Below, one piece after another: positions 30,838 to 63,366 of a stretch of 64,000 nt of DNA (position 1 is the first letter of the stretch; each line of letters begins with the position of its first letter). The notes below the pieces were generated by a model that saw only the letters and a list, made by a program, of their open reading frames with translations, was not told the DNA's origin and ran no database searches. The position numbers and the translations under genes are program-made. Origin of the DNA: Stutzerimonas stutzeri (GTDB lineage Bacteria; Pseudomonadota; Gammaproteobacteria; Pseudomonadales; Pseudomonadaceae); contig NZ_JAMOIC010000017.1 of the NCBI RefSeq assembly GCF_024448895.1, forward strand, positions 61,401-125,400, given 5' to 3'.

Positions 30838-31869
30838 TCAGGAAAGCAGGCTTACCACCGCGAAACGACTGATGGTGGCCTGCGCCACCACGGTCTGGGT
30901 GACCGCGGCGTAGCTGGTGGGGCTGCGCTGCATCAGATTGAAGACCGAGCGCGAGAAATCCATGGCCCATTGCTTCTCATCGGCATGCGCCTGGCGCGCC
31001 AGGAATTCGCGGATTTCCTTTTGCCGATTGCTCAGCTGTTCGCGCAGGGAGGTGACCTTGTCGAGCCCCGCTACCACCGAGTCGAGCAGTCGACGCAGCT
31101 CGCGGAACGAGTCCAGTTGCAGCTCTTCGGGAAAGCTCAGCAACTGATCTTCCTGGCTCTGCACGCGAACGTAACGGCCCTTGTCGAACAGCTTGCCCTC
31201 ACCCTGCACGGCCAACTGATCCTTGAGCTTCTGCCAGTCGCCTTCACGCGCGGAGAAGCGGAGTTCGCCGTTGGCGTCCAGCTCAGCCCGAATGCCAGCC
31301 TGGCCCAGACTGCCATTGAAGCGCCGCAGGATCTGCTCGTCACTCATGTCATCGTCGAGCACCACGGCAACCGGCTCTGCCAGTTGACGTCCGCCGCTGA
31401 ACAACAGGGTTTCGCGGCCCGACTGACGAATATTCTCCAGCGACTCCAGCCCCTGCAGACTGAAGCGGCTACGCACCGGCTCGGTCAGGCGCAGCTTGAG
31501 ATTGGCGTCCAGTGAGTTGCCCGAGCGCAGGCTGCGCTCCTTGAGCAGCTCACCCACTTGCTGCACGGCCTGGCGGATGCTGTCCTCGCCATCAGGCTGC
31601 GGCGTGCTGATCTGCCGGCTGAGGCTGAGCTTGAGTTGCGACAGTCGGGTTTGCAGATCGCCGAGGTAGCTGTCCGCGGACTGCATGGACGACAGCTGCT
31701 GGTTGAGCTGCAGGCTGAAGCTGGTGCTCTTGCTGGTGGCCGTTTCGGTGTGTGGTGTTTCGGCCGGCGCACCGGCACGCAGCGACGCGGGTGCATCCCG
31801 CAGCAGCGCCTCGCGACGCTCCTGCGGGTTGATTGCGGAAACAGCGGGGAGCTGCTTGCCAATCTTCAT
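30838..31869 (-). CDS. LafW-like lateral flagellar operon protein (putative hook-associated)
   Basis: A 343-aa protein encoded 14 bp after flgL, last in the flgB-L operon. It is helical at both ends, with an N-terminal heptad-like region (FSLQLNQQLSSMQSADSYLGDLQTRLSQLKLSLSRQ) and a C-terminal helix ending SRFAVVSLLS. The middle (about 165-215) reads like a flagellin hook-IN unit: MSDEQILRRFNGSLGQAGIRAELDANGELRFSA. That places it with axial or hook-associated proteins rather than regulators. In E. coli Flag-2 and other lateral loci the gene after flgL is lafW, annotated as hook-associated; the equation is by position and motif, not by proven homology. No standard polar flagellar counterpart is evident. 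Confidence 0.6.
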   Translation of the reverse strand: MKIGKQLPAVSAINPQERREALLRDAPASLRAGAPAETPHTETATSKSTSFSLQLNQQLSSMQSADSYLGDLQTRLSQLKLSLSRQISTPQPDGEDSIRQAVQQVGELLKERSLRSGNSLDANLKLRLTEPVRSRFSLQGLESLENIRQSGRETLLFSGGRQLAEPVAVVLDDDMSDEQILRRFNGSLGQAGIRAELDANGELRFSAREGDWQKLKDQLAVQGEGKLFDKGRYVRVQSQEDQLLSFPEELQLDSFRELRRLLDSVVAGLDKVTSLREQLSNRQKEIREFLARQAHADEKQWAMDFSRSVFNLMQRSPTSYAAVTQTVVAQATISRFAVVSLLS

Positions 31870-31883
31870 TCACGCTACCTCGG

Positions 31884-32798
31884 TCAGAGCATGCCGAACA
31901 GCGACAGCCCGTTGATCTTCAAATAGGTTTTCTGCGTCGCCTGCAGCGACAGCTGATAGTTGTTCAGGTCGATACTGGCGGTCGCGTAATCGAGTTGCGA
32001 AAGCTCGCCCTCGATCTTCTTGTTCACCAGCGAGACATCTTCGTTGCTGTTCGACAGCAGCGTCAGGGTGTTCTGCCGCCCGCCCAGCTCCGAGACGGCG
32101 CCCAGCAGGTCGCCGTGGGTCTTGTCGAGGCTGGTCAGCGTAGCGGTGATCGATGCCTGTACCGCAGGATCGTTGGCGTCCAGTGCCGGGTCGGCGAGCA
32201 TTTTCACCAACGCGTTGAGGTCGTTGAGCATGCCAACGCCGCCACCGAAGACCTGCGCGGCGGTGACATTCTCCTCGACCAGTACGCCATTGGCGACTGC
32301 CGCCTGGCGGTATTGATCGTTGCCGGTCAACTGGTAGCTCTCGGTCGCGGCATCGAAGGTGATCGCCGGACGATCACTAAGGGTGCCGGAGAACAGGTAG
32401 CGGCCTTCTTCATCGCGCACGTTGGCAAAGCTGAGGATGGTTCGTTCCAGATTGCCCATCTCGTTGGCAATGGCCGCCAGGTCTTCGCTGGTGTTGCTGC
32501 CGTTGGCCGCCCACAGCAGCAGGTCGCGCACGTTGAGCATGGTGTCCGAGGCGGCCTTGAGGTTGGCCTCCTGCTTGGAGAGGTTGCCGGAGACGTTGGC
32601 GATGCTGGTGCGGTACTGGGTCAGGGTCGCTTCTTCGCGCTCAATGCGCAGCACACGCACGGCGGAAATCGGGTCGTCGGAGGGCAGCAGCATGCGCTCG
32701 CCGGTGGCCATCTGCTGCATCAGCTTGCCGAGCTTTTCGGAGCTGGTATTCATCGAGCCGTGCATCATGGCGGTGATCTGGGCGTTGGAGATGCGCAT
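31884..32798 (-). CDS. flgL: Flagellar hook-filament junction protein FlgL (HAP3)
   Basis: 304-aa hook-associated protein 3, joining FlgK to the filament. The N-terminal flagellin-like coiled coil MRISNAQITAMMHGSMNTSSEKLGKLMQQ and the LLLPSDDPISAVRVLRIEREE segment are typical. The C-terminal flagellin helix ends DYATASIDLNNYQLSLQATQKTYLKINGLSLFGML. It lies 38 bp after flgK and ahead of the LafW-like gene in the leftward hook-basal-body operon. It should be secreted through the flagellar export apparatus with the help of FlgN. Confidence 0.92.
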   Translation of the reverse strand: MRISNAQITAMMHGSMNTSSEKLGKLMQQMATGERMLLPSDDPISAVRVLRIEREEATLTQYRTSIANVSGNLSKQEANLKAASDTMLNVRDLLLWAANGSNTSEDLAAIANEMGNLERTILSFANVRDEEGRYLFSGTLSDRPAITFDAATESYQLTGNDQYRQAAVANGVLVEENVTAAQVFGGGVGMLNDLNALVKMLADPALDANDPAVQASITATLTSLDKTHGDLLGAVSELGGRQNTLTLLSNSNEDVSLVNKKIEGELSQLDYATASIDLNNYQLSLQATQKTYLKINGLSLFGML

Positions 32799-32836: not shown

Positions 32837-34204
32837 TCAGAACATCGCCAATACGGCGTTGAACAGATCGTTGGAAGTGCTGATGACCTTCATGTTGGCC
32901 TGATAGGCCTGCTCGTAGGCCATCAGGTTGACGGCTTCCTCGTCCAGATTCACCGCGCTGACGCTGTCACGCTGGGCCTGGGCTTGCGCCGTGACGGTGG
33001 TCGCTGCGCCGAGGTCGGCCTGATTCTGGCGGCTGGCGCTGGCAACACGACCGACCAGACCGGCGTAGGCGTCGTTGAGTGGCACGGTGTTGCCGGCAAC
33101 CTGAATGCCGGCTGATTTCATTTCGAGCAGCGAAAGCAGCACCTTGTTGTTACCGACCTCTCCCGGCGCGGCGGAAAACGCCAGCTCCGATGCGCCGAGC
33201 GCGTTCACCGCAAGCATGCCGCTGGTACTGCCGGCGTTGTAGCTGAAGAGCGGTTGGCCGGGATTGCCATTGAGGTCGAAGCCACCGGCCAGCGTGTCGT
33301 TGACCAAGGTTGCGACGGCGGCCGCCATGTCATGCAGGTCCTGCTGAGCCGGGCGCAACGCGCCGTATTCCGTGTCGTAGAGGCCGCCCAGCGAACCGCC
33401 GAGGCCCTGATGATTCAACGGGAAGGTGGTCTTGGCGAAGACCAGAGTCATCTCCTGCTCACCGGCAACGTTTTCATTGACCTTCAGCTGTCCGGCGGTC
33501 GCACCGGCCACCAGCGGCTGACCATTGGCCAAGGACACACTGAGTGTCCCATCCGAGGCTTCCTGAACGCGGATGCCAACGCACTGGCTGAGGTCCTTCA
33601 CCAAATTTTCGCGCGTATCGCGCAGGGTCGCGGTATCGCGTCCGGCCGATTCCATTTCGCGGATCTTGGCATTGAGCTCGGCAATGTTGCCGGACAGCCC
33701 GTTGATCTCGCTGGTCATCGCGACCCGCTGGCCCTGCAGGGCATTGAGCTGCGTACCGATGTTGCTGTTCAGCCCATTGAAGCGCTGGGCCAGCTGCTTG
33801 GCCTCGCCAATGATCTGCTGGCGCAGGGCGATGGATTCGGGGGTCGAGCTGGCTTCGCTGAGGGCGGCGAAGAAGTTGTCCAGGCCGACGCTGACGCTTG
33901 AGCCTTCGCTGTCGATCAGGCCTTCGAGGGCGGTCAGATACTGCTGGTTGGTATTGAAGTAGCTCTTGTCAGTAGTGGCGCGCCAGAGTTGCTGATTCTG
34001 GAAGTCGTTGGACAGCCGACGGATGCTGCTGACCTGCACGCCCCCACCGATGCTGACTGACGTCTGCCCGCCAAGTGACTTGAGGTCCGGCGTCAGACGG
34101 CTGAAGCCCGGCGTGTTGACGTTGGCAATGTTCTGCCCGGTCGCCGACAGGGCGATCTGCGAGGCGCGAACGCCGCTGTAGCCAATTTGACCAAGAATAC
34201 TCAC
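32837..34204 (-). CDS. flgK: Flagellar hook-associated protein FlgK (HAP1)
   Basis: 455-aa first hook-filament junction protein. Both conserved ends are present: MSILGQIGYSGVRASQIALSATGQNIANVNTPGFSR at the N-terminus and DEEAVNLMAYEQAYQANMKVISTSNDLFNAVLAMF at the C-terminus. It is shorter than many polar FlgK proteins, as lateral versions often are. The start codon is GTG, overlapping the flgJ stop (GTGA), so translation is coupled to flgJ. Confidence 0.93.
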   Translation of the reverse strand: MSILGQIGYSGVRASQIALSATGQNIANVNTPGFSRLTPDLKSLGGQTSVSIGGGVQVSSIRRLSNDFQNQQLWRATTDKSYFNTNQQYLTALEGLIDSEGSSVSVGLDNFFAALSEASSTPESIALRQQIIGEAKQLAQRFNGLNSNIGTQLNALQGQRVAMTSEINGLSGNIAELNAKIREMESAGRDTATLRDTRENLVKDLSQCVGIRVQEASDGTLSVSLANGQPLVAGATAGQLKVNENVAGEQEMTLVFAKTTFPLNHQGLGGSLGGLYDTEYGALRPAQQDLHDMAAAVATLVNDTLAGGFDLNGNPGQPLFSYNAGSTSGMLAVNALGASELAFSAAPGEVGNNKVLLSLLEMKSAGIQVAGNTVPLNDAYAGLVGRVASASRQNQADLGAATTVTAQAQAQRDSVSAVNLDEEAVNLMAYEQAYQANMKVISTSNDLFNAVLAMF

Positions 34205-35229
34205 GACACGACTTCCTTCGGCTCGATCCGGATCGGTTGCGCGAACGCCACCGAGAGGCGGGCGCCAGAGACAACACTGCGCCCAGTAGAAAGAGCGACC
34301 GGATCGCCACTGGAATTAAGCGTCGTCGGCATGACAGGCGGAAAGGCCTGCAACTGGGCCCGCGGTTCGCTCGGCACCGGCGAGGCGGCACTGAGATCGT
34401 TGAGGATGTTGCGGGTGTAATTACGCGTCTCCGTAAAGGGGATCTTCTGCACCCACGCGCCGGTGCCGATTTCGCCCTTGCGCGGATCGCCATGGCTCTT
34501 CAGCCACTCATCCACCCGGCCGGGGCCGGCGTTATAGGCCGCCAGCGCCAGGGCCTGATGGCCGTCGTAGCGATCGAGCATCTTGTTCAGGTAGGCGCTG
34601 CCGAGGCGCTTGTTGTACTCGGCATCTGTGGTCAGCCGCGCTTCGCTGAACGGCAGACCCAATTCGGCGGCCATGTCCCGAGCCGTGCCGGGCATCAGCT
34701 GCATCAGGCCGCGAGCGCCTTTTGGCGAGACGGCGGCGATGTTGCCACTCGACTCATGCTTGATGACGCTGTCGACCAACGACTTGAAGCCCGCCTTGCC
34801 ACTTTCCCAAGCGCTGTCCAGCGCATCGACGCCACGCTGCCAGGTGCCGCGAAGTGAGTGCTGTCCGCCACCTTGAATACCACTGCCCGAGTGCCCTGCC
34901 AGCGCAGTTGGCACCGGGGCGGTATTTACCGCGCCGCCACTGAGCTGCTGCACCAGCATGTCCGCAATCCCGGTCTGACGCTTGCCGGCCAGGGTATCGG
35001 CGAGCACTTCGTCGTAGAAATCGCGCATGGTGTCCAGCTCGCGGCTGCGCATGGGGTTGCCAGCGCCCAGCACATCGCCGGCTTTGCGCATCTGCTTGAG
35101 GATCTGCTGCAGGAACATCGCCTCGAACTGTTCGGCGACGACTTCCAGCTGCTGGCGCCGTGCCGCGGTCGGGCCATCGGCGCGGTTGCGCATGGAAGCG
35201 AGGTGTTGCGGAAGGGATACGATGCTCAT
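34201..35229 (-). CDS. flgJ: FlgJ with lytic transglycosylase domain
   Basis: Rod-cap and muralytic protein, 342 aa. The N-terminal rod-binding domain (about 20-100) has EVVAEQFEAMFLQQILKQMRKAG and LDTMRDFYDEVLADTLAGK. The enzyme half is not the glucosaminidase usual in enteric FlgJ but an Slt/GEWL-type lytic transglycosylase: VIKHESSGN with putative catalytic Glu159, GARGLMQLMPGTA (171-183) and AYNAGPGRVDEW (231-242). It would open peptidoglycan for rod growth. It sits between flgI (68-bp gap) and flgK (overlap). The C-terminal 70 residues are proline-rich and of unknown role. Confidence 0.9.
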   Translation of the reverse strand: MSIVSLPQHLASMRNRADGPTAARRQQLEVVAEQFEAMFLQQILKQMRKAGDVLGAGNPMRSRELDTMRDFYDEVLADTLAGKRQTGIADMLVQQLSGGAVNTAPVPTALAGHSGSGIQGGGQHSLRGTWQRGVDALDSAWESGKAGFKSLVDSVIKHESSGNIAAVSPKGARGLMQLMPGTARDMAAELGLPFSEARLTTDAEYNKRLGSAYLNKMLDRYDGHQALALAAYNAGPGRVDEWLKSHGDPRKGEIGTGAWVQKIPFTETRNYTRNILNDLSAASPVPSEPRAQLQAFPPVMPTTLNSSGDPVALSTGRSVVSGARLSVAFAQPIRIEPKEVVS

Positions 35230-35297: not shown

Positions 35298-36419
35298 TTA
35301 CATCACGATCAGTTCAGCGTTGAGCGCGCCAGCACGCTCCAGCGACTGCAGGATGCTCATCACGTCGTCAGGCGTGGCGCCAAGACTGTTGATGGTGTTG
35401 ATGATGCTTTCCAGGCTCGCGCCTTCCGGCCACTTGAACATCGCCTTGCGATCCTGCTCGATGGCGACGTCCGACTGCGGCGTGACAACGGTTTCGCCAC
35501 CCGCAAATGCATTCGGCTGACTGACCTGCGGCCGCTCGCTGATGGTCACGGTCAGGCTGCCATGGGCAACCGCTGCCGCTTTCACCCGCACACCCTGGCC
35601 GACCACCACCGTACCGGTGCGGCTGTTGAACACCACTTTTGGCCGGCTGCGTCCTTCCTCGACTTCCAAACGTTCGAGCATGGCCATGAAGCTCATGCGC
35701 TGGGTGCTGGTAACCGGCGCGCGGATCGAGACCTTGGTGGCGTTCAGTGCCGTAGCGGTGCCGGGACCGAAGTAGGCGTCAACGGCGTCGACGACACGGG
35801 TGACGGTCTGGAAGCTCGGCTGACGGACGTTGAGCATCACTTCGGCGCGTTCGGTGAAGTCGCTCGGGATCATCCGCTCGACCGTCGCTCCATTAGGAAT
35901 CAGGCCGCTGTTAGACGTGTTGATCGCGACTTTGGAGCCGCTAGCGCCTTCGGCGTTGACGCCACCGACGATCACCGCGCCCTGGGCCAGCGCATAGATT
36001 TCGCCGTCGACACCCTGCAGCGGGGTCATCAGCAACTGGCCGCCGCGCAGGCTCTTGGCGTCGCCCAGCGAAGAAACCGTGACATCAACGGTCTGGCCGG
36101 CGCTGTAGGACGGCGGCACCGTGGCGGTGATGGTCACCGCAGCGACGTTCTTCAGCTTCGGGTCGACGTTCGGCGGCAGATTCACGCCGAACTGCTTGAT
36201 CATGTTCGTCACCGACTGGCTGGTGAACTTGACCTGGTTCTTGTCGCCGGTGCCGTCGAGGCCCACGACCAGACCGTAGCCGATCAGCTGGTTGCCACGA
36301 ATGCCCTCGACATCCACCAGGTCCATCAGCGGCACGGCCTGGGCCGGGAGTTGCCACAGCGCGACGGCGGCGAGAAACAGCTTGAGGGATCGCATCGGGC
36401 TAGTCATTCCAAGGGCCAT
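35298..36419 (-). CDS. flgI: Flagellar P-ring protein FlgI
   Basis: 373-aa periplasmic P-ring protein that assembles around the rod in the peptidoglycan layer. An N-terminal Sec signal (about 10-30, SLKLFLAAVALWQLPAQA) is followed by the invariant VDVEGIRGNQLIGYGLVVGLDGTGDK. The C-terminus ends TINSLGATPDDVMSILQSLERAGALNAELIVM, as in the family. ATG 36419 is three bases past the flgH stop region; nearby in-frame starts at 36407 and 36395 would only shorten the signal peptide. Confidence 0.94.
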   Translation of the reverse strand: MALGMTSPMRSLKLFLAAVALWQLPAQAVPLMDLVDVEGIRGNQLIGYGLVVGLDGTGDKNQVKFTSQSVTNMIKQFGVNLPPNVDPKLKNVAAVTITATVPPSYSAGQTVDVTVSSLGDAKSLRGGQLLMTPLQGVDGEIYALAQGAVIVGGVNAEGASGSKVAINTSNSGLIPNGATVERMIPSDFTERAEVMLNVRQPSFQTVTRVVDAVDAYFGPGTATALNATKVSIRAPVTSTQRMSFMAMLERLEVEEGRSRPKVVFNSRTGTVVVGQGVRVKAAAVAHGSLTVTISERPQVSQPNAFAGGETVVTPQSDVAIEQDRKAMFKWPEGASLESIINTINSLGATPDDVMSILQSLERAGALNAELIVM

Positions 36420-36422
36420 CAC

Positions 36423-37085
36423 TTAAAGAGGGAACAGTGGCGACGCGAAGAACCGCGTCAGCCAGCCGGCCGAATTGCTGTCGTTGAGCACACCACGACC
36501 CGCGTAAGAAATCTTCGCGTTGGCCACGCTCTGGGAGGACACCTGGTTGTAGCGGTTGATGTCATCGATGCGCACCAGCCCGGTCAGGCGGATGTACTCG
36601 TCGCCCTGGTTCAGGCGCAGGGCCTTTTCGCCCTTGATCTGCAAGGTGCCGTTGGGCAACACGCGATGCACGCTGACGGCAATGGAGCCGCGCAGGGTGT
36701 TCTGCTGCGAACTCTTGGCCGAGCCCTTGAACTCGCGTTCGCCGGAGGCCGAGGTTTCGACGTCCGGGTAGGTCTTGCCGAGAATGGTCGGCACGCCGAT
36801 CCCAACGCTCGACTCCTTGCCGAAGCTGGTACCGGCGCTCTTGCTCGACTGGGTGGATTCGTCCAGCACCACGGTGAGGATGTCGCCGACCCGCACTGCG
36901 CGCTTGTCGCTGATCAGCGAGCCACTGTAACCGGAGCGGAACAGACCGCCACCGGTAGTCGGCGGCAGGCTGTAGTCCAGCTCCAGCGGCTCGTATTCGC
37001 TGGACGGCTCTTCCGGCAGCATCTCGTTGAAGCTGGCGCAGCCGCCAAGCAAGGCCAGCACGACGAGCAGAATGGGCGTACGCAT
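36423..37085 (-). CDS. flgH: Flagellar L-ring lipoprotein FlgH
   Basis: 220-aa outer-membrane L-ring lipoprotein. The signal peptide ends with lipobox LGGC (MRTPILLVVLALLGGCASF). The conserved block SLISDKRAVRVGDILTVVLDESTQSSKSAGTSF and the C-terminal NRYNQVSSQSVANAKISYAGRG are present. Start ATG 37085 follows the flgG stop by 8 bases; a GTG one codon upstream is also possible. It is encoded between flgG and flgI in the usual order. Confidence 0.94.
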   Translation of the reverse strand: MRTPILLVVLALLGGCASFNEMLPEEPSSEYEPLELDYSLPPTTGGGLFRSGYSGSLISDKRAVRVGDILTVVLDESTQSSKSAGTSFGKESSVGIGVPTILGKTYPDVETSASGEREFKGSAKSSQQNTLRGSIAVSVHRVLPNGTLQIKGEKALRLNQGDEYIRLTGLVRIDDINRYNQVSSQSVANAKISYAGRGVLNDSNSAGWLTRFFASPLFPL

Positions 37086-37093
37086 CACTATTC

Positions 37094-37879
37094 TCAGACG
37101 GTCTGGTTGAGGAACTGCTGCATGCCGCTGGCGGCATCGAGCACCTTGGCGTTGGCCTCGTAGGCACGCTGGATGGCGATCATCGCCACCATGGCCTCGA
37201 CAACCTGCACATTCGAGCCTTCAAGCACGCCCTGCTTGAGCTGGCCGAGGCCCTCTTCGCCCGGCACGCCTTCGACGGCTTCACCGCTGGCAACGCTTTC
37301 GCGATAGAGATTGCCGCCCAGCGCTTCCAGGCCACCCGGGTTGGTGAAGTTGACCAGCGTGATCTGACCCAGCTCGGACGGCAGGGTGTCACCCGGCAGA
37401 ACAGCCGTAACGATGCCATCAGCGCCGACGGTGAAGCCGGTGCTGCCTTGCGGCACTTCGATGGCTGGCGTCAGCGGCAGGCCCTGTGCGTTGACCATCA
37501 CGCCTTCGGCGTTGAGCTGAAACTGACCGTTCTCGGTGTAGAGAATGTCACCGTTGGGCGACTCGACCTGAAAGAAGCCACGCCCGACGATCGCCAGATC
37601 CATCGGCTGGCCGGTGGTCTGGATGCTGCCTTCGGTGAATACCTTCTGGGTGCCGGCGACGCGCACGCCGCTGCCCAGCTGAATGCCGGACGGCACGGTG
37701 TTGATCTCATCCGCCTGCGCGCCGGGCTGCTTTTCGATGCTGTAGAACAAGTCTTCGAAGACCGCGCGATCAGCCTTGAAGCCGTTGGTGTTGACGTTGG
37801 CCAGGTTGTTGGCGACGGTCGCCATGGCGGTGTCTTGTGCAGCCAGGCCGGTCTTGCTGACCCAAAGTGCGGAATTCAT
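37094..37879 (-). CDS. flgG: Flagellar distal rod protein FlgG
   Basis: 261-aa distal rod subunit. The N-terminus MNSALWVSKTGLAAQDTAMATVANNLANVNTNGFK and the C-terminus SNVQVVEAMVAMIAIQRAYEANAKVLDAASGMQQFLNQTV match the rod/hook family ends. The central GILQVTGRGLDLAI-type segment reads QTTGQPMDLAIVGRGFFQV. It lies 14 bp after flgF. Confidence 0.95.
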   Translation of the reverse strand: MNSALWVSKTGLAAQDTAMATVANNLANVNTNGFKADRAVFEDLFYSIEKQPGAQADEINTVPSGIQLGSGVRVAGTQKVFTEGSIQTTGQPMDLAIVGRGFFQVESPNGDILYTENGQFQLNAEGVMVNAQGLPLTPAIEVPQGSTGFTVGADGIVTAVLPGDTLPSELGQITLVNFTNPGGLEALGGNLYRESVASGEAVEGVPGEEGLGQLKQGVLEGSNVQVVEAMVAMIAIQRAYEANAKVLDAASGMQQFLNQTV

Positions 37880-37893: not shown

Positions 37894-38619
37894 TCAGCTG
37901 CCGCGGATCATTCGGTTGCCGGCGTCGGAAAGGTCCTCGGCGGCTTTCATCATCTTTACCTGGGTTTCGAACAGGCGGTTGAGGCTCATCGTCGAGGCCA
38001 GCTCGTCGATGGCCGACACGTTGCTCGACTCCAGAAAGCCGCTGGCCAGGCGCACGTCTTCGCTCGGCGCGGCGGGCTCACCGTTGCGCGTGACCAGCAA
38101 GCCGGCCTCGTTCTTCATCAGGTCCGCAGCCGCGACGTCGACCAGGCGGATGCGGTCCACTTCGGCCATCATCCAGTCGCCCGGCGCCATGATCGACACG
38201 GTGCCGTCATTGCCGATCTCGACACGATCATGCTCGGGCAGCTCGATAGGCCCGCCTTCGCCCATGACAGCGCGACCGTTGAGGGTCAGGCCTTCGGCAT
38301 CGATCTGCATGCTGCCCTGGCGCGTATAGGCCTCGCCGTCGCCATCCTGCAGGACGATCAGACCGGTGCCCTTGACCGCAAAATCCAGCTCGCGGCCGGT
38401 GGCCATCAGCGGCCCCGCAGCCATGCTCACGCCGTTGTTCTCGACCACCGCCATATGCCGGCTGTCGTAGCCGTGACCTTCCACCGCCACCGCCTGAGCA
38501 CGTTCGAGGTCGGCACGAAAGCCCGGTGTGTTGACGTTGGCGAGGTTGTTGGAGCGCACCTGCAGCGACATCATCGTGCGGCTGGCAGCGGTCATCGCCG
38601 TGTATCCCAAACGATCCAT
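37894..38619 (-). CDS. flgF: Flagellar proximal rod protein FlgF
   Basis: 241-aa rod subunit. It starts MDRLGYTAMTAASRTMMSLQVRSNNLANVNTPGFRADL and ends with a helix containing IDELASTMSLNRLFETQVKMMKAAEDLSDAGNRMIRGS. The internal MATGRELDFAVKGTGLIVLQ is typical. It is encoded between flgE (9-bp gap) and flgG. Confidence 0.94.
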   Translation of the reverse strand: MDRLGYTAMTAASRTMMSLQVRSNNLANVNTPGFRADLERAQAVAVEGHGYDSRHMAVVENNGVSMAAGPLMATGRELDFAVKGTGLIVLQDGDGEAYTRQGSMQIDAEGLTLNGRAVMGEGGPIELPEHDRVEIGNDGTVSIMAPGDWMMAEVDRIRLVDVAAADLMKNEAGLLVTRNGEPAAPSEDVRLASGFLESSNVSAIDELASTMSLNRLFETQVKMMKAAEDLSDAGNRMIRGS

Positions 38620-41428: not shown

Positions 41429-41481
41429 AACCATCACGAGAAGGTAAGTGATTGATTTACTTAGTTGAAAATCTCAGCAAC

Positions 41482-47776: not shown

Positions 47777-47784
47777 GACTACTG

Positions 47785-52462: not shown

Positions 52463-52487
52463 CACCATCCCCTCTTGAAGCAAGTAG

Positions 52488-53775: not shown

Positions 53776-53809
53776 GATTTTCGTTCCAACTCGGTGGTTA
53801 CTGCCTAAC

Positions 53810-53840
53810 AAGCGACCGCTCGGGCGAAAACCTTAAATGT
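53810..53840 (-). promoter_or_regulatory. Candidate sigma-28 promoter of flgM
   Basis: On the minus strand: TAAGGTTT, 11 bases, then GTCGCTTG, about 40 bp before flgM. The -35 matches TAAAGTTT at 7 of 8 and the spacing is ideal, but the -10 matches GCCGATAA at only 4 of 8. Coordinates are approximate to a few bases. Confidence 0.45.
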
Positions 53841-54012: not shown

Positions 54013-54438
54013 CTACGCAATCTGGCTACGCCACCAAGTCTGTGCCGCCAGACCATCCTGAATCTTCTGTTCCTGCGCCGTCAGGATCTGCTGCCACTGC
54101 TGCATCTTGGCCTCGATCACGTGCTCGACCACCTTCTCGCTGCGCATGGCCTGCAGCAACTCCTGCTGAATGCGCACCAGCGCCTGTTCGGCCACGGCCA
54201 GTTCGCGCCGCTGCAGCTCGACCATCTTGTACAGCGTAGCCTTGTAGCGCTGCTGATTGTCGCGCTGCAGCGGCGTGCTCATCGGCACGCTGAAGCCGCA
54301 CAGACGGCTCAGGCCAGTGATGTTGTTGCGATAGCGCTGACAGAGGTTCTGCTGAAATTGAACCTGCCCGAGCATCTGCTTGACCCGGTTGCCGCGCAGG
54401 CTGGCCAGGCGCGTGAGCGTTTCGATCTGCTGTTTCAT
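54013..54438 (-). CDS. fliJ: Flagellar export chaperone FliJ
   Basis: 141-aa coiled-coil protein of the export ATPase complex. It starts MKQQIETLTRLASLRGNRVKQML and is helical throughout (YKMVELQRRELAVAEQALVRIQQELLQAMRSEKVVEHVIEAKMQQWQQI). ATG 54438 overlaps the fliI stop (ATGA). FliJ resembles the gamma subunit of F-ATPase and inserts in the FliI ring. It is the last gene of the leftward lafK-fliEFGHIJ block. Confidence 0.85.
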   Translation of the reverse strand: MKQQIETLTRLASLRGNRVKQMLGQVQFQQNLCQRYRNNITGLSRLCGFSVPMSTPLQRDNQQRYKATLYKMVELQRRELAVAEQALVRIQQELLQAMRSEKVVEHVIEAKMQQWQQILTAQEQKIQDGLAAQTWWRSQIA

Positions 54439-55767: not shown

Positions 55768-56466
55768 TCAGGCTTCCGCCCTGATGTGTTCGCCCAGCGT
55801 GTCCATGCATGAATCCAGGCGCTGCTGACAGCCGATGTCGGCTTCGGCCTGTGCCGTGATCACGCGACATTCGCCGAGCGCCAGCTTTTCATCCGGCACC
55901 AGCCGCCAGTTCGCCGCGCGCTCGGGCGCCAGCTCCTTGATGCGGGTGCATTCCTCGGGGTTGAGCAGAATGCGCACGTCTTCCTGATCCCCCGGCATAC
56001 CCGCCAGGGCTTCCTCAGCCAGGGTCAGCAGTTGGGTTGGGTGCAGGGTCAGCTCGCAGCGGATCACTTGCTTGGAGACCTTTTGCACCAGCTCCAGCAC
56101 CTGCTCTCGGCGCGCCTGCTCGAACTCCTGACGAAAGCCGTCGAAACGCTCGACCAGCGCATCCATGGGCCGCGCCGCTTCGTCGAATGCGCGACGGCCC
56201 TGAACGCGGCCTTCTTCACGGCCGATGGCCTTGCCGTCCTCTATGCCACGCTCGAAGCCTTCGCGATGCCCGGCCTCGCGGCCCTGCTCCAGACCCTGCT
56301 CGTAGCCCTTGTCGATGCCTTCCTGAAAGCCATCGGCCACGGCGCGTTGCATCGCCGCCGGGTCTCCGGCCAGGCTGTCGGCCAATTCCGCTGCACTGCG
56401 CACGCGCGGCGGGAAGCGGAACGGGCGCCACGAGCGGCCTTCACCCTTGATGATCTTGATGCTCAT
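55768..56466 (-). CDS. fliH: Flagellar export regulator FliH
   Basis: 232-aa stator-like regulator of FliI. A long glycine-repeat helix is visible (about 55-95: GFQEGIDKGYEQGLEQGREAGHREGFERGIEDGKAIGREEGRVQGR), with the G-x3-G pattern typical of FliH. A C-terminal V-ATPase-E-like domain follows (LELVQKVSKQVIRCELTLHPTQLLTLAEEALAGM). It links FliI to the C-ring via FliN and the gate. One base separates it from fliI; the gap to fliG is 6 bases. Confidence 0.92.
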   Translation of the reverse strand: MSIKIIKGEGRSWRPFRFPPRVRSAAELADSLAGDPAAMQRAVADGFQEGIDKGYEQGLEQGREAGHREGFERGIEDGKAIGREEGRVQGRRAFDEAARPMDALVERFDGFRQEFEQARREQVLELVQKVSKQVIRCELTLHPTQLLTLAEEALAGMPGDQEDVRILLNPEECTRIKELAPERAANWRLVPDEKLALGECRVITAQAEADIGCQQRLDSCMDTLGEHIRAEA

Positions 56467-56472: not shown

Positions 56473-57540
56473 TTACTCGACCGTCTGTTCGCGGAACAGC
56501 TGAACCTGCAGATCGCCTTCGTTGGACATGTCACGGACCACGGCCATGATGTCCTTGCGCACCTGCTCTACACGACTCAGCGGCACTGGGCCCTGACGGC
56601 GGTTGATCGATTCCATCTGCTGCGCCTGACGCTTGGGCATCGCAGCCTGGACGGCCTTGACCAACGCAGGCTCAGCGCCTTTGAGCGCGACGACCCATTC
56701 CTCCAGCGGGATCACTTCCAGCAGGGTCTGCAGCACGTCCGGGTTCTGCCGCGAAAGGATGAAGAAGTCATACATTTCATCCTCGATCTTGCCGACCAGC
56801 TCTTCGTTGTGCGCGCGCAGCAACTCGAACATCTGGTCACGGTTGCCCTTGAAGCGGTTCATGATGTCCGCCGCCTGCTTCACGCCACGCACCTGCGAGC
56901 CCTGATTGGAGAGCACCTGCAGGCTGCGATCGATGAGCTGTTCCAACTCGGCGATGACGTCGCTGTTGACCTCGTTTAGGTTGGCGATGCGGTAGAGCAA
57001 TTCGTCCTGGCGCTCGGGCGGCATGCACTCGAGCACGTCGGTGGCCATGCCCGGCGGCAGGAAGGCAAGGAACACGGCCTGCATCTGCGCATGCTCTTTG
57101 GCAATCAATGCAGCGAACTGTTTGGGATCGAGCCATTCCATCTTCGCCATCTTGGCGCGGATCTCCTCGCCATAGATGGAATCGAGCAGCGAACGGGTGA
57201 TGTCGCCGCCCAGCGCCTTGCCGAGCATGCCTGACAGGTAGGTGCGCGAGGCGCCCTTGATGCTGCTCTGCTCCTTGTAGTCGTCGAAGAAGCGGCTGAT
57301 GACATCGGAAACCATCGGCTGCTTGACGTTGGACAAACGCGCCATCGCCTGGCTGATGCTGATGATTTCTTCGCGCGTGAAATTGCGCAGGATGCCCGCG
57401 GAGATGTCATCGCCCATGCTCAGCATGAGGATCGCCGCCTGGTCCAGCGAACTCACCGAGCGCAGTTGCACCGGGCGCGCCTTGATTTCCTTGCTCGAGC
57501 CGGTAACCGACTCAGCTGGCTGGGTTGAGGTCTCTTTCAT
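56473..57540 (-). CDS. fliG: Flagellar motor switch protein FliG
   Basis: 355-aa rotor torque protein. The N-terminal part binds FliF (SLDQAAILMLSMGDDISAGILRNFTREEIISISQAMARL), the middle has the EHAQ-like FAALIAKEHAQMQAVFLAFLPPGMA motif, and the C-terminal stator-contacting domain has PDVLQTLLEVIPLEEWVVALKGAEPALVKAVQAAMPKRQAQQME with charged residues. It overlaps the fliF end by 29 bases. It starts ATG 57540 with a 25-residue extension compared with many FliG proteins. Confidence 0.95.
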   Translation of the reverse strand: MKETSTQPAESVTGSSKEIKARPVQLRSVSSLDQAAILMLSMGDDISAGILRNFTREEIISISQAMARLSNVKQPMVSDVISRFFDDYKEQSSIKGASRTYLSGMLGKALGGDITRSLLDSIYGEEIRAKMAKMEWLDPKQFAALIAKEHAQMQAVFLAFLPPGMATDVLECMPPERQDELLYRIANLNEVNSDVIAELEQLIDRSLQVLSNQGSQVRGVKQAADIMNRFKGNRDQMFELLRAHNEELVGKIEDEMYDFFILSRQNPDVLQTLLEVIPLEEWVVALKGAEPALVKAVQAAMPKRQAQQMESINRRQGPVPLSRVEQVRKDIMAVVRDMSNEGDLQVQLFREQTVE

Positions 57541-59197
57541 TGCGGCCTATCCAATGCTTGATGACTTCCGAAACGCGCTCCGGGTCGTTCTTGGCGAGCA
57601 TCTGCAAATGCTCGATCTGTAGCTCCAGCCCTGAACCCGGCGCCGGCAAACGGATTTCCGAGAGCGGATTGAGCTCGCCGAAAATATGGATGCCGTCGCC
57701 GGTTGCACGCGGGCTGGCCAATGCTGCCCGCGCCTCGGCTTCAATTGCCGTCGGCACCGGCACCGAAGCGGCTGCCAGGGTGCCTTCGAGTGGAACAGCG
57801 TCCGCTTCTGCCGGTGCATTGCGCCGGGTCAGGCTGCGCACGGCCGGGCGGACCACGATCAGCAACAGCAGCAGCGCGATCACCCCAGCCAGGGCAAGTT
57901 TGGCCAGCGCATGCACCTGGGTGTTTTCCCACCAGGGCACTTCCTGCGTGACTGTTTCCACCGAGGCGAAAGGCAGCACGCTGAGGGTGATCAGATCGCC
58001 GCGCTCCAGCTTGAAGCCAACGGCGCTGCGCACCATTGCTTCCAGCTGGGCACGGGCTTCGTCGCTCCAGCCGCCTTCCGGCGCAGCTCCGGCGTTGACG
58101 ACCACCGCCACGCTCTGCTGACGCAGCGCAAAACCGGCGTGTTTGACGTGCACCACGCTCTGGTCGTAATCCATCTGACGGGTCGACTCTTCACGCAGGG
58201 AGGTCGCGCCCTTGGTTTCATTCTTTGCCGCCGCAGCCTCCTCGCCCTCTTTAGGCGGCGCCACTGGCCTATTGGCAAGCGAGCCGGGAATGCCCAGGGC
58301 CAACTGGTCCAGTGCACTTTCATTGCTCAGGACTTCACGGCGCAGGCGCGGCGTCTCGCCGTAGGACTGGAAGGTCTCTTCTTTCTGGCTGAAGTCGATG
58401 TCCGCAGCCACGCTGATGCGGTAGTTGCCGCTGCCCAGTACCGGCGCCAGGACCTGTTCGATATTGGCGACCGCCTTCTGCTGGTAGTCCTCGACCGCGC
58501 CCCAGTTCTGCGCCGGACCGCCGCCAACGTTGAGGCCGCGCGACAGCAGTGCGCCGTACTGGTCGACCACGCCAACATCCTCGGGCTTGAGATTGGGCAC
58601 ACTGCCAGCCACCAGATTGACGATTGCGCCGACCTGATCGGCGCCGAGCTTGTAACCAGGCTCGAGCTGGAGCATCACGGATGCCTTGGTCGGCGCACGC
58701 TTGCTGATGACGAAGGAACTGTTCTCCTCCTGCGCAAGGTGCACCCGAGCATGCTGCACACCCTTGAGCGACATCACGGTGCGCGCCAGCTCGCCTTCCA
58801 AGCTGCGCTTGAGGCGCACGTCCTGCACGAATTGGCTGGTGCCCAGCGGCTCCTCCTTGTCGAACAGTTCGTAGCCTGCCGGCAGGGCCACTTTCACGCC
58901 TTTGGCGGCCAGCAGCATGCGCGCACGGGACAGCTGATCCTCACGGACCAGAATCTGCCCGCTCTGCGGATGAATGCGGTATTGCACGACTTCGGCGTCA
59001 AGGACCTGCATGACCTCGGCAACCGGAAAGGCTTCGCCCGCGCCATGCAGCGGCCGGAACGAGCCGTTGTCACGCCACAGGTAGAAGGCCACGGCAACCG
59101 CCAGCGCAGCAGCGATCACCGCCATGCCGGCCAGGGTCACCCGCGGATCGAGTTGCAGGCCACCAGCGGGCAGCTTGTTTTTTAGTTTTTCGAACAC
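57512..59197 (-). CDS. fliF: Flagellar MS-ring protein FliF
   Basis: 561-aa MS-ring subunit. TM1 is at about 24-44 (VTLAGMAVIAAALAVAVAFYLW); the periplasmic ring-building motifs follow (EDQLSRARMLLAAKGVKVALPAGYELFD; VQHARVHLAQEENSSFVISKRAPTKASVMLQL; GAIVNLVAGSVPNLKPEDVGVVDQYG); TM2 is at about 438-458 (ALAKLALAGVIALLLLLIVV); and the cytoplasmic tail for FliG ends IEHLQMLAKNDPERVSEVIKHWIGRNERD. The start codon is GTG (MFEKLKNKL). The gap to fliE is 20 bases. Confidence 0.95.
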   Translation of the reverse strand: MFEKLKNKLPAGGLQLDPRVTLAGMAVIAAALAVAVAFYLWRDNGSFRPLHGAGEAFPVAEVMQVLDAEVVQYRIHPQSGQILVREDQLSRARMLLAAKGVKVALPAGYELFDKEEPLGTSQFVQDVRLKRSLEGELARTVMSLKGVQHARVHLAQEENSSFVISKRAPTKASVMLQLEPGYKLGADQVGAIVNLVAGSVPNLKPEDVGVVDQYGALLSRGLNVGGGPAQNWGAVEDYQQKAVANIEQVLAPVLGSGNYRISVAADIDFSQKEETFQSYGETPRLRREVLSNESALDQLALGIPGSLANRPVAPPKEGEEAAAAKNETKGATSLREESTRQMDYDQSVVHVKHAGFALRQQSVAVVVNAGAAPEGGWSDEARAQLEAMVRSAVGFKLERGDLITLSVLPFASVETVTQEVPWWENTQVHALAKLALAGVIALLLLLIVVRPAVRSLTRRNAPAEADAVPLEGTLAAASVPVPTAIEAEARAALASPRATGDGIHIFGELNPLSEIRLPAPGSGLELQIEHLQMLAKNDPERVSEVIKHWIGRNERDLNPAS

Positions 59198-59217: not shown

Positions 59218-59538
59218 TCACAGCGGCATTCTCATGACGTCATCGAACGCCGTGGTCAGTTTGTTGCGCACCTGCAGCAGGGCGGAGAACGACACGCTGG
59301 CCTTCTGGCTGTCGATCATGGCGCCAACCAGGTCGTCACTCTTGCCGCTGTCCACCGCAGCCATGGCCGCGCTGGACTGATGCTGCTGGGTATCGACCGA
59401 GCGCATCGCGGCCATGAACAGGCCACCTGCATCGGGCGCCGCCTGGCTTGCAGGCTTGATTGCCGGGCTGCCCGCGACATCCGCGAGCTGCTGCATCCGG
59501 CCCAGCATCTCCTGCTGCACTTGAGTGATTGAACTCAT
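59218..59538 (-). CDS. fliE: MS-ring/rod junction protein FliE
   Basis: 106-aa rod adaptor. The C-terminal helix [24 protein letters not shown] is the FliE signature, preceded by [18 protein letters not shown] 59538 ([15 protein letters not shown]) with AGGGGAAAG upstream is used; a longer in-frame extension toward 59724 overlaps lafK and is rejected. It lies 38 bp after lafK, so lafK and fliEFGHIJ probably share a transcript. Confidence 0.92.
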
Positions 59539-59576
59539 CGCTGGCTTTCCCCTGTTCGGCAATAAAAGTGTCTGGA

Positions 59577-60962
59577 TCAGAAATTCAGCTCGATGCCCTG
59601 CTCGCGCATGGCATTGAGGCGATAGCGCAAGGCGCGCGATGTCATCCCGAGGCTGGCAGCGGCCTTGGTCTTGTGCCCGTCGAACCTGCGAATGGTGTCG
59701 ATCACGTGCTGGTACTCGGCCCACTTGCCACTGGCGCGCAGGGCAGCTTTTCCGCTTTCGGCGAACAGGGGCTGCGGTTTTTCCATGCGCACTTCGGCCT
59801 GCGCCGGCACTGCGAGTCCCAGATCCTGCGGCTGGATGAACAGGCCGTTGCGCAGTACCAGCGCGCGCTGCACGGTGTTTTCCAATTCGCGTGCATTGCC
59901 CGGCCAGTCGTGGAGCATCAGCGCGCGGCAGGCATCGGCGGTGAACAGCTCCTCGCCAGCCTCCTGCGGTGCGTACTTGGCAACGAAGCGACGCGCCAAC
60001 GGCAGGACATCTTCCTTGCGCTCACGCAGTGGGCTGATATGCAGCGGCAGCACGTCGAGGCGGAACATCAGGTCGGCGCGGAAACGCCCTTCGGCCACTT
60101 CCACCTGAAGATCGCGGTTGGTGGCGGCGATGATCCGCACGTTGAGTTCGATTTCCTTGCGACCACCGAGGCGCTCAACGCGTTGCTCCTGCAATACCCG
60201 CAGCAGCTTGGCCTGCAGGGCCAGCGGCAGTTCGCCGATTTCGTCGAGCAGCAAGGTGCCGCCATTGGCCAGTTCGAATTTGCCAGGCTGCGCAGTAACC
60301 GCACCGGTGAAGGCGCCCTTCTCATGGCCGAACAGGATGGATTCGAGCATCTGTTCAGGGATCGCCGCGCAGTTCACCGCGATGAAGGGCGCCTCGGCGC
60401 TGGCCGAAAAGCGATGGATGTAGCGCGCCATCAGTTCCTTGCCGGTGCCGGTCTCGCCAGTGATCAGGATCGGCGCACGGGTCAGCGAAACACGCTGTGC
60501 CATGGCCAGCAGCCGGCGACCGGCCTGGGAACATGAGACGAAGCTTTCCTGCGCGGCGCCGGCATATTCCTGCCGGCGCAACAGGGCACTGAGCTGACTT
60601 TCACTGAAGGGTGAAAGCAGGTAATCGACACAACCCAGTTCAAGTAAGGCTGCCGCTTTTTCCTGATCGGCATATTGCACAACCGGCACTACGCTTATAT
60701 TACGAACGCGACGCACCAAGGCATCGACCTGCGCATAAAGGTTATGCGCGGCGACCGTTCCAATGAGTACGAAAACCAGCGAAACACCTTTTAGTGAGTG
60801 AGTGTCCAGCTCGTTGAAATCGGCATAAGCCGATACTGTGCACCCTTCTTTTCGCAAGCCTTCGCTGAGGAAATTGGCGCCCGACTCGGCGTTGTTTCCA
60901 ACAATAAGAATCTTCTTGCGCGCCGGCGTGGGAGCGAATAACGCCTCGCACGAGTAGTTCAT
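59577..60962 (-). CDS. lafK: Sigma-54-dependent lateral flagellar master regulator LafK
   Basis: 461-aa NtrC/FlrA-family activator. The N-terminal domain (about 15-130) has a receiver-like fold but without the phospho-acceptor set: LIVGNNAE in place of the acidic pair, VFVLIG in place of the Asp strand, and DYLLSPFS in place of the Lys. The AAA+ domain has Walker [17 protein letters not shown] (near 165), the sigma-54 loop [11 protein letters not shown] (near 214) and [13 protein letters not shown]. The C-terminal Fis-type helix-turn-helix is [24 protein letters not shown]. LafK activates sigma-54 promoters of lateral loci, and two such promoters occur here. Start ATG 60962 is taken; GTG 60992 is possible. 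Confidence 0.9.
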
Positions 60963-61198
60963 TGCATGACTGACACTGTTCAATGGGACCACCTTGCCGA
61001 AGGTACGTGTGCCAGTTGGCCTGAACGCAACGCCGGACTTCGCTGAAGAAAAATTTATTTAACTCGTTCGGAACTTTGGTCGCCCTGTCTGTCCAACTAG
61101 CCGATCGAGACAACTACCGACAGCCGATCACTCCGAAACAACTGCGCGCACGGTAACCATTGCGCTCAGCCCTGCCCAATCAGTTCCGCTAAATTAAA

Positions 61199-61281: not shown

Positions 61282-61300
61282 GGCACGCTAGAGCCGTGCC
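61282..61300. promoter_or_regulatory. Inverted repeat GGCAC-N9-GTGCC upstream of fliM
   Basis: A 5-bp dyad with a 9-base centre, about 110 bp before fliM, in the divergent control region 60963-61406. It resembles a sigma-54 element but the spacing of GG and GC is off by one, so a protein-binding operator is the more cautious reading. The rest of the 444-bp region holds no gene. Confidence 0.3.
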
Positions 61301-61406: not shown

Positions 61407-62246
61407 ATGTCTGGCAATTCAAAAGTCCACCATGGCGTGCCCGCCCAAAGCCTGACTGTATTGAAACCGCAGAAGCTTGGGCGGCATCACCACAAGATTC
61501 CTCAGTTTATTAAGGAAACCACCAACAAGAATCCCCGTTTGATGGGCGATTACTTCCTGCGCAATTACCGGATCAGCCTTGAGTTGAGCAAGGTCGATGT
61601 GCAGGAACCCAACAAACAGGCGCCGGACTGCATTTACCGTTCGCCCATGGGGAAAGTTGGATTCTCGATTGACCGAGCGTTATTGACCGAAGCACTGGAG
61701 TGTTATTACGGTGGCACTATTGTGCCCAATCAGGACACGCCGCCGCTCAGCACTTCCGAACAACGGATGCGTAATCGCCTGGGTCTTGACCTGACCTATA
61801 TATTCGCGCGCTCGATATTGTCCGGCGAGACGTTTGGCGAACTCGAGCGCTATGAAAACGATTACGAAGAAACCACCTGGGAATATGTGGCCGAGTTCGA
61901 ATACATCAGCCACCTGACCAATAGCCGGTCGTCGATTTTCATTCATCTCGATACTGAACTGGTCGATGAACTCACCATGCGCCTGGCCGGGCCACTGCCG
62001 ACGCGACTGACAGGCAATCCGGTCGACCACATCAAGCATCTCCCGGTCCGCCTCGATTGCGTGGTCGCCTCGGTGCAGATGCCGCTGTCGCAGGTGCTCG
62101 GTTTGCAGCTCAACGACATCCTCATGGTGCGCCCGCTGGACCGCTACGAAGTGCGCATCAACCAACAGAAGCTATTCCGGGGGACTGTCTTCGAAGAAGA
62201 CGGCGCCTTGTACCTCACTTCACTTGAAAGCGTGAAATCCCAATGA
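61407..62246 (+). CDS. fliM: Flagellar motor switch protein FliM, short lateral form
   Basis: 279-aa C-ring protein, about 40-60 residues shorter than usual FliM. The N-terminus (MSGNSKVHHGVPAQSLTVLKP) lacks the LSQxEIDALL helix that binds CheY-P. The middle domain retains DRALLTEALECYYGGTI and LSTSEQRMRNRLG, which correspond to the FGGDG...TEQRVI region. The C-terminal SpoA domain is clear (LDCVVASVQMPLSQVLGLQLNDILMVRPLDRYEVRINQQKLFRG). It overlaps fliN by four bases (ATGA). No good ribosome site precedes ATG 61407. Without CheY binding the motor may not be switched by chemotaxis, which is inference. Confidence 0.9.
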   Translation: MSGNSKVHHGVPAQSLTVLKPQKLGRHHHKIPQFIKETTNKNPRLMGDYFLRNYRISLELSKVDVQEPNKQAPDCIYRSPMGKVGFSIDRALLTEALECYYGGTIVPNQDTPPLSTSEQRMRNRLGLDLTYIFARSILSGETFGELERYENDYEETTWEYVAEFEYISHLTNSRSSIFIHLDTELVDELTMRLAGPLPTRLTGNPVDHIKHLPVRLDCVVASVQMPLSQVLGLQLNDILMVRPLDRYEVRINQQKLFRGTVFEEDGALYLTSLESVKSQ

Positions 62247-62614
62247 CCGGTCAACTGTCCGACAACGAATTCGAGAACCTCATCAACGAGGGTGATCTGA
62301 GCCTCGACACCACCGACGAGCCAGCCGCTGCACCCGCACCCCAGCCCCAGGCGCCACGCCAGGACCTGAGCTTTTTCGGCAAGATCCCGGTGAACGTCAC
62401 CCTGGAAGTGGCCTCGGCGGAAATCTCGCTGAAGGAACTGATGGAGTGCGACACCAGCAGCGTCATCGTCCTCGACAAAGTGGCCGGTGAGCCGCTGGAT
62501 GTGAAGGTCAACGGCACCCTGTTCGCCAAGGCCGAAGTGGTCGTAATGAATGGTAGCTATGGCCTGCGCATCGTCGAACTCTCCGGCGCCGGCCTGGATG
62601 CGCTGACGCAATGA
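62243..62614 (+). CDS. fliN: Flagellar motor switch protein FliN
   Basis: 123-aa C-ring protein. An acidic, Pro/Ala-rich N-terminus (about 1-40) leads to the SpoA domain (FFGKIPVNVTLEVASAEISLKELMECDTSSVIVLDKVAGEPLDVKVNGTLFAKAEVVVMNGSYGLRIVEL). It overlaps fliM and fliP by ATGA junctions on both sides. Confidence 0.92.
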   Translation: MTGQLSDNEFENLINEGDLSLDTTDEPAAAPAPQPQAPRQDLSFFGKIPVNVTLEVASAEISLKELMECDTSSVIVLDKVAGEPLDVKVNGTLFAKAEVVVMNGSYGLRIVELSGAGLDALTQ

Positions 62615-63366
62615 AGCTGCGCCGCGGGCTGTCACTGCTGTGCCTGATGCTGGCCAGCCTGTTTCCGCTGATGGCCCAGGCGGCCGGTGGCGAGATCACC
62701 CTGTTCAATCTGAACGATACCGAGAACGGACAGGAATTCAGCGTCAAGCTGCAGATCCTGATCATCATGACGCTGCTGGGCTTTCTGCCGGCGATGCTGA
62801 TGATGATGACCTGCTTTACTCGCTTCATCATCGTGCTGGCCATCCTGCGCCAGGCCATCGGCCTGCAGCAGAGCCCGCCGAATCAGGTGCTGATCGGCAT
62901 TGCGCTGATCGTCACGCTGCTGGTAATGCGCCCGGTGTGGCAGGAGATTCATAGCGCCGCCTTCGAGCCCTTCCAGAACGACGAGATCAGCCTGGAGCAG
63001 GCACTGGAAGTCTCCAAGGGCAGCCTCTCGGGCTTCATGCTGGCGCAGACCAACAAGACCTCGCTGGAAACCATGGTTGCCCTGGCGGGCGAGGAAGTGC
63101 CGGAGAACCTTGAAGACCTGGACTTTTCCCTGCTGCTGCCGGCATTCGTGCTGAGCGAGCTGAAGACCGCGTTTCAGCTGGGTTTCATGATCTTCGTGCC
63201 GTTTCTGGTAATCGACCTGGTGGTCGCCAGCGTGTTGATGGCGATGGGCATGATGATGTTGTCGCCGATGATGATCTCGCTGCCGTTCAAGCTGATGATT
63301 TTTGTGCTGGTGGATGGGTGGGCGCTTTTGATCGGCACCCTGACCACCAGTATTCAGCCGTTTTAG
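62611..63366 (+). CDS. fliP: Flagellar export gate protein FliP
   Basis: 251-aa gate subunit. A cleavable signal (MKLRRGLSLLCLMLASLFPLMAQA) precedes four TM segments: LQILIIMTLLGFLPAMLMMMTCFTRFIIVLAILRQAIGLQQSPPNQVLIGIALIVTLLVM, then LPAFVLSELKTAFQLGFMIFVPFLVIDLVVASVLMAMGMMMLSP. Family signatures are intact. It is coupled to fliN. fliQ, fliR, flhB and flhA, which normally follow, do not: the next 634 bp contain no gene. Confidence 0.95.
   Translation: MKLRRGLSLLCLMLASLFPLMAQAAGGEITLFNLNDTENGQEFSVKLQILIIMTLLGFLPAMLMMMTCFTRFIIVLAILRQAIGLQQSPPNQVLIGIALIVTLLVMRPVWQEIHSAAFEPFQNDEISLEQALEVSKGSLSGFMLAQTNKTSLETMVALAGEEVPENLEDLDFSLLLPAFVLSELKTAFQLGFMIFVPFLVIDLVVASVLMAMGMMMLSPMMISLPFKLMIFVLVDGWALLIGTLTTSIQPF

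Follow-up and report, generated by a model that had tools for sequence, protein, structure and literature searches.

Bacteria of the Pseudomonas stutzeri group have been described as forming lateral flagella, which raises the question of where the genes for these flagella lie. The subject here is a 64,000-nt stretch of contig C17 from Stutzerimonas stutzeri (the window; feature coordinates are window positions), which carries a flagellar block at positions 30838–63366. This locus is a plausible genetic basis of P. stutzeri lateral flagella. As judged from sequence, its 35 genes and four more on contig C14 very probably constitute a complete, selected 39-gene lateral (Laf/Flag-2) system that exists beside a FleQ/FlhF polar flagellum.

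Gene content and type of the two flagellar sets

NCBIfam and Pfam profile matches, together with position, assign 35 lateral-type flagellar genes to the block (Table 1). Family matches cover the rod, hook, rings, filament, cap, chaperones, export ATPase, switch, stator, sigma-28 factor, anti-sigma factor and sigma-54 activator; the profile search of the window proteins gave no NCBIfam or Pfam family match for lafW and lafD. The flagellin is of the LafA type by a narrow margin (NF038071, 'lateral flagellin LafA', 367.9 bits, cut-off 365), and a LafK-type activator is present at the locus. The set has its own stator, sigma-28 factor and export gate. The first-pass annotation had placed a full lateral set in 32.5 kb. 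The 35 genes, including LafK, LafA, LafZ-like and LafW-like genes, are indeed there, whereas the gate genes fliQ, fliR, flhB and flhA are found at the beginning of another contig, C14 (C14:212–4509). The same annotation described arrays of repetitive extragenic palindromic (REP) sequences in the locus, and REP-like repeats are found at about 42.4, 45.3–45.9, 52.8–52.9 and 53.97 kb, all of them intergenic.

Contig C17 ends at window base 64000, 634 bases past fliP. A dispersed repeat, present at 10 places in the genome at over 100 bits, is at both contig ends. fliP and fliQ are neighbours in all 84 loci of relatives where both genes were placed. The sequence between them is at least 500 bases long in 20 of these loci and contains a long inverted repeat in 19 of the 20 (G016 and L023 being equal, one gap enters the count twice). 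C17 and C14 would therefore adjoin as one locus. The fliP–fliQ element is about 0.8–1.1 kb long, has two imperfect inverted arms and occurs in many Stutzerimonas, with G017, L024, L041 and L042 not having it. Since the genes downstream of the element remain open, an internal promoter or read-through past it is likely.

Does the genome have a second flagellar set? A separate polar set with a larger FliC had been anticipated, and it is found, with flg genes on C10, fli/flh genes on C1 and fliC/fliD/fliS on C6. The polar flagellin is a 494-amino acid frame on C6, larger than LafA. Besides LafA and the lateral FlgL, Flagellin_N matches this long flagellin and an FlgL-like protein on C10. C1 also encodes FleQ, FlhF, FliA and proteins like CheZ, CheA and MotC/MotD, as well as a MinD-like neighbour of FlhF that scores under the MinD cut-off and is read as FlhG. 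The polar FliM was identified by place and sequence, not by family scan. FleQ and FlhF sit on C1 and not with the window locus, and by this mark the window set is not the polar Pseudomonas flagellum. A third FlhA-like protein is encoded on C20 with a FliI-like ATPase 41% identical to the lateral FliI; these type III secretion-like ATPase and export gate genes (C20:20265–29545), assigned without a family scan, are read as putative type III secretion genes. G016, G034 and G035 also encode an ATPase with a similar level of identity to polar FliI.

The lateral proteins might have arisen by duplication or replacement of the polar set, as most of them have polar homologues: at E ≤ 1e-4, tblastn finds a partner for 30 of the 39 in the C1, C6 and C10 polar loci. 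But the polar set is present elsewhere in the genome, and the FliI phylogeny argues strongly against this origin. In a tree of 45 rows chosen from 118, the window, E. coli Flag-2 and Pseudomonas loci are grouped with a Shimodaira–Hasegawa-like approximate likelihood ratio of 100, and in a tree of 19 rows with support of 100/100, polar FliI forming its own clade. Constraining the window FliI to the polar clade is 49 log units worse and is rejected by the approximately unbiased (AU) test (p = 0.00036). A polar origin is thereby refuted for FliI, and for the locus it is extremely improbable. FliF and FlgE also favour Flag-2, by score and not by tree (386 bits against E. coli Flag-2 and 259 against the genome's own polar protein for FliF; 416 and 293 for FlgE). 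Neither condition that would have refuted the first-pass annotation, a genome with no other flagellar locus or trees with these proteins inside the polar Pseudomonas clade, is borne out, the second being judged by the FliI trees.

More broadly, the E. coli Flag-2 score exceeds the score against the polar loci L105–L109 for 36 of the 39 lateral proteins, the other three being FliQ, FlgM and LafD; these scores are only roughly comparable because blastp was against one protein and tblastn against loci. Pairwise alignment joins 38 of the 39 named E. coli Flag-2 pairs at E ≤ 2e-6, and LafD is paired only by position. The E. coli reference is NZ_CP159875.1 (about 1088161–1125641) of strain 12089, used because the 042 record NZ_CP042934.2 keeps only partial flhA and lafU.

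Distribution, chromosomal site and history

How widespread is the locus, and how old? lafA is found at ≥69% identity in 16 of 37 genomes of the genus, and the same 16 have a lateral-type FliI (53–55% to polar FliI). A scan of genome contigs for LafK gave 473 relatives, the best 80 of which comprise 64 named Stutzerimonas or Pseudomonas, six other records and 10 Shewanella or Aeromonas. A lactonase-like gene adjoins lafW in 14 of the 16 carriers, and relatives show the same gene order; the carriers G029 and G031 have no match for the lactonase-like gene. In G031 lafA and the fli block share a contig that does not hold the lateral flgE (C21, C11) and that continues beyond lafA; the locus seems to be split in this genome.

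The lactonase site was inspected in 18 of the 21 genomes without lafA (G005, G008 and G009 were left out). Three of the 18 have laf remnants there: bits of flgK and flgL in G014, part of flgL and lafW in G025, and flhA, part of flhB, part of flgJ, flgK, flgL and lafW in G033. G004, which is 71% complete, may be a carrier, its contig breaking off within lafW. The other 14 show no laf match at E ≤ 1e-3 apart from LafK-like stretches (37–47%) in four, which are read as other sigma-54 activators.

The genus tree was built from the 4.4-kb polar fliI region of 36 genomes (G004 left out) and represents one region, not a species tree. Presence of laf on this tree needs at least 10 changes, eight of them forced by well-supported branches. 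The patchiness of lafA and its scatter on the tree might suggest a recent genomic island similar to the second, FlhDC-type flagellum of P. fluorescens F113, which has been described as a genetic island (PMC5031763). However, FlhC (PF05280) was not found in the genome with an E. coli control positive, FlhD not having been searched for; the G+C content of the locus is 61.7% and that of the sequence to its left 63.0%; and the neighbouring gene is the same in most carriers. In addition, a lateral lafK–fliI tree, built from 15 carriers without G012, does not contradict the polar-region tree when the two are compared by eye, and remnants exist in three non-carriers. A recent island is therefore very unlikely. 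The shared site, the agreeing trees and the remnants favour an ancestral locus with repeated deletion; it looks as though the locus is ancestral in the P. stutzeri group and has since been lost by a good part of the species. Most gaps in the distribution would be losses rather than gains, although parsimony alone cannot separate the two. The distribution, the lactonase site, the remnants and the agreement of trees, as well as the contrast between FliM and FliN given below, go beyond the first-pass annotation.

The LafA protein is 96% identical to that of G011/G028 and 72–75% to that of the nearest genome, G016. A recent swap of lafA alleles was considered and rejected as recent, the middle of the gene being only 80% identical in DNA to G011/G028. 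Perhaps lafA is an old allele common to several species.

Selection and upstream elements

Is the locus maintained? All 39 lateral genes have open reading frames. The ratio of non-synonymous to synonymous substitution rates (dN/dS) is below 0.15 in 40 of 52 values, which come from 14 genes and up to four relatives and range from 0.00 to 0.52; the higher values, with the maximum of 0.52, are mostly in LafE, LafZ, LafB and LafA. The FliI protein is identical to that of L023 (S. zhaodongensis) at a dS of 0.33. These properties speak against a silent, decaying relic, which Flag-2 appears to be in many E. coli: of 30 E. coli rows taken at even intervals, 22 have a shortened flhA next to lafU. Decay would also fit the remnants and deletions seen in other species and the palindromic element between fliP and fliQ, but with open frames throughout and low dN/dS, a relic appears highly improbable here.

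Candidate sigma-54 promoters precede flgB and lafB, and the rows that share the GG-N10-GC signature at lafB include P. indica and P. nitroreducens. The lafB candidate overlaps the listed start, and the true start is probably further in. The two blocks upstream of lafA may represent a sigma-28 element; a sigma-28 consensus scan gave two sites, none at lafA. The inverted repeat upstream of fliM has one mismatch in two of 16 rows and is not present in G029, G031 and three Pseudomonas rows. The sigma assignments at flgB, lafB and lafA are presumptive.

From these elements a regulatory order can be proposed. LafK and sigma-54 would turn on the rod, hook and cap operons from the conserved -24/-12 elements. 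When the hook is complete, FlgM would leave and LafS (sigma-28) could then transcribe lafA, with LafT/LafU driving the rotor. The locus brings no polar placement factors, and the flagella would form along the side of the cell; presumably the system is expressed and has a role at surfaces.

Several observations weigh against a complete, selected lateral system of Flag-2 type. The join of C17 and C14 is drawn from relatives, the contigs not being joined by sequence. In the FliI trees, Shewanella and Aeromonas loci found via LafK are outside the clade of the window and E. coli Flag-2, and the tree program flagged long branches. The score comparison is unfair to LafK, LafT and LafU, because L105–L109 are without FleQ and perhaps some polar stators. 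lafA was not found in 21 of the 37 genus genomes, and laf presence is not clustered beyond chance on the polar-region tree (78 and 86 of 500 shuffles were as low). Some dS values are near or above 1, and dN/dS stands without a neutral or polar control. Lastly, the window holds no excess of the sigma-54 pattern (33 occurrences, 42.9 expected), and the promoter candidates thus rest on conservation and position.

The lateral system provides a concrete candidate locus, open to knock-outs, for the reported lateral flagella of the P. stutzeri group. It also suggests that a 40-kb machine is old and has been repeatedly discarded in Stutzerimonas, a genus that allows comparison of closely related carriers and non-carriers. 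Table 1 lists the features; the reading frame of the lafZ-like gene opens at 43699, and the start given was chosen here. Outside the block, selA and selB are adjacent at 6024–9466 and represent a selenocysteine system.

Table 1. Genes, repeats and candidate control elements of the lateral flagellar locus, in window positions
Feature	Position	Strand	Evidence
lafW-like, downstream of flgL	30838..31869	-	no family match; 26% to same-place E. coli Flag-2 gene, pairwise E 2.7e-19
flgL	31884..32798	-	TIGR02550 213 bits, over cut-off
flgK	32837..34204	-	TIGR02492 342 bits, over cut-off
flgJ, rod-binding domain and SLT transglycosylase domain	34201..35229	-	PF10135, PF01464
flgI	35298..36422	-	NF003676 452 bits, over cut-off
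flgH	36423..37088	-	NF009072 over cut-off
flgG	37094..37879	-	TIGR02488 over cut-off
flgF	37894..38619	-	NF009280 over cut-off
flgE	38629..39816	-	NF005286 518 bits, over cut-off
flgD	39867..40550	-	NF007198 248 bits, below cut-off 267
flgC	40550..40978	-	TIGR01395 over cut-off
flgB	40983..41348	-	TIGR01396 over cut-off
candidate sigma-54 (-24/-12) promoter of flgB	41413..41428	-	2 mismatches to pattern; GG-N10-GC by eye in 15/15 rows
flgA	41452..42249	+	TIGR03170 over cut-off
two conserved promoter-like blocks upstream of lafA, GGATTTAATCC - 12 bases - TGTCGCCTTAC	42522..42555	+	near-invariant, variable spacer, 16 rows
lafA, lateral flagellin, 293 amino acids	42615..43496	+	NF038071 just over cut-off
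lafZ-like regulator: winged helix, hydrophobic segment, outer part	43849..44718	+	PF00486; 31% to E. coli Flag-2 winged-helix gene
REP-like array, 159-nt units, between genes	45344..45939	.	repeat analysis
lafU, MotB-type stator	45993..46907	-	NF005273 LafU 278 bits, under cut-off 383
lafT, MotA-type stator	46904..47887	-	TIGR03818 over cut-off
lafS, FliA-type sigma-28	47981..48760	-	TIGR02479 over cut-off
lafF (FliL)	48771..49232	-	NF005435 39 bits, weak
lafE, FliK hook-length control	49269..50555	-	PF02120
lafD, FliT-like by position only	50453..50776	-	no Pfam match; kept in relatives
lafC (FliS)	50760..51158	-	TIGR00208 over cut-off
lafB (FliD cap)	51155..52492	-	NF005955 142 bits, under cut-off
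candidate sigma-54 promoter of lafB, overlaps listed reading frame start	52488..52503	-	1 mismatch; GG-N10-GC by eye in 15/15 rows
flgN	53063..53503	-	PF05130
flgM	53500..53811	-	TIGR03824 over cut-off
fliJ, reading frame longer than gene	54013..54783	-	TIGR02473 40 bits, under cut-off
fliI	54435..55766	-	NF005535 741 bits, over cut-off; FliI trees
fliH	55768..56466	-	NF009925 over cut-off
fliG	56473..57540	-	TIGR00207 185 bits, below cut-off 227
fliF	57512..59197	-	TIGR00206 over cut-off
fliE, reading frame longer than gene	59218..59724	-	TIGR00205 over cut-off
lafK, sigma-54 activator	59577..60992	-	PF00158, HTH_8; 51% to E. coli Flag-2 activator
inverted repeat GGCACG-N7-CGTGCC upstream of fliM, candidate operator	61282..61300	.	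exact in 9/16 rows
fliM, without N-terminal motif of polar FliM	61407..62246	+	PF01052; N-termini compared
fliN, residues 5–16 a conserved EIDAL-like peptide before variable linker	62243..62614	+	TIGR02480 over cut-off
fliP	62611..63366	+	TIGR01103 over cut-off
dispersed repeat after fliP, arm of inverted-repeat element; contig end	63420..64000	.	repeat searches; partner piece C14:11–109

Rotor N-termini and comparison with known systems

How might two rotors in one cell be told apart? The FliM tail binds CheY, and Bacillus FliY carries an EIDAL part; the lateral FliM of Shewanella is not known to bind CheY. The polar FliM starts with MAVQDLLSQDEIDALL. The lateral FliM starts, in the rows compared, with an unrelated conserved stretch and is without the polar LSQDEIDALL motif, and the FliM of E. 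coli Flag-2 and three candidate Shewanella FliM proteins likewise do not have it. Residues 5–16 of the lateral FliN read LSDNEFENLINE, which is EIDAL-like; in Pseudomonadaceae and their neighbours this peptide is conserved before a hypervariable linker. Residues 5–19 are conserved, most of 22–36 are variable, and the core follows. fliN was located in 79 of 81 sources. Of those outside Shewanella and Aeromonas, 70 with the window counted, 64 have a FliN start that fits the peptide pattern (a pattern drawn from the same rows, with 64 matches in 1.81 million residues of these sources). The N-terminus of Shewanella/Aeromonas FliN differs from the window-type peptide. In a class-wide survey, 36 of 369 genomes matched the lateral FliM at E ≤ 0.001, own genome included; apart from the latter, only G331 matched beyond the C-terminal part, and its fliN was not identified.

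Perhaps the docking peptide for CheY or FlhG has gone from lateral FliM and its only copy is on FliN, but this is doubtful. The window FliN peptide scores 19 against the polar FliM motif, a value that 21 of 53,406 background windows equal or exceed. Six other lateral proteins hold a window scoring at least 19 (FlgL 31), and in polar FliN one reaches 33. Scores of the 67 distinct lateral FliN rows are only moderate, with a median of 22 and a range of 8–27. The peptide may equally bind FliH or FliM. According to PMC12826062, FlhG meets FliM via the FliM N-terminus, or FliY in Bacillus, and its C-ring partner in lateral systems is unclear. If the FliN proposal is true, FliN would be the point at which CheY steers the lateral rotor or FlhG meets it. 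The presence of the FliM motif in the polar rotor and its absence from the lateral one also make the steering and counting of two flagellar types per cell testable.

Lateral flagella are a known kind of system, and lateral proteins of a Pseudomonas are already in print (PMC13111069). In the open-licence literature searched for lateral flagella with Pseudomonas stutzeri or Stutzerimonas, no paper on this locus or on P. stutzeri lateral flagella was found. Like the genome described here, Pseudomonas sp. M1 has both polar and lateral sets named, and LafA, lateral MotA/B, FlgE, FlhA, FliA and FliK are reported in its proteomes (PMC13111069). P. fluorescens/ogarae F113 similarly has a second flagellar set, but that set is FlhDC-controlled, forms a polar tuft and has Azotobacter-like genes (PMC5031763), in contrast to the Stutzerimonas genome with no FlhC match. 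In the part of PMC8036289 seen, only the F113 second set is named.

The Shewanella/Aeromonas loci L092–L101 share a LafK 51–55% identical to that of the window and have fliN nearby in nine of 10; they differ in having, in the rows used, a FliI outside the window and E. coli Flag-2 clade. In E. coli Flag-2, FliI is 71% identical to the window FliI. Each of the 39 genes has a counterpart there by place or score, and the two loci share the activator, LafA, the winged-helix gene and the lafB–U module. The reshuffling relative to the enteric order that the first-pass annotation pointed out is real, and consists mainly of a swap of the lafBCDEFSTU block and the flgB–L–lafW block. Three further genes in E. 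coli have no counterpart in the window locus, the E. coli FliN is without the N-terminal peptide, and the E. coli FlgJ is 99 amino acids long, whereas the window FlgJ has an SLT transglycosylase domain.

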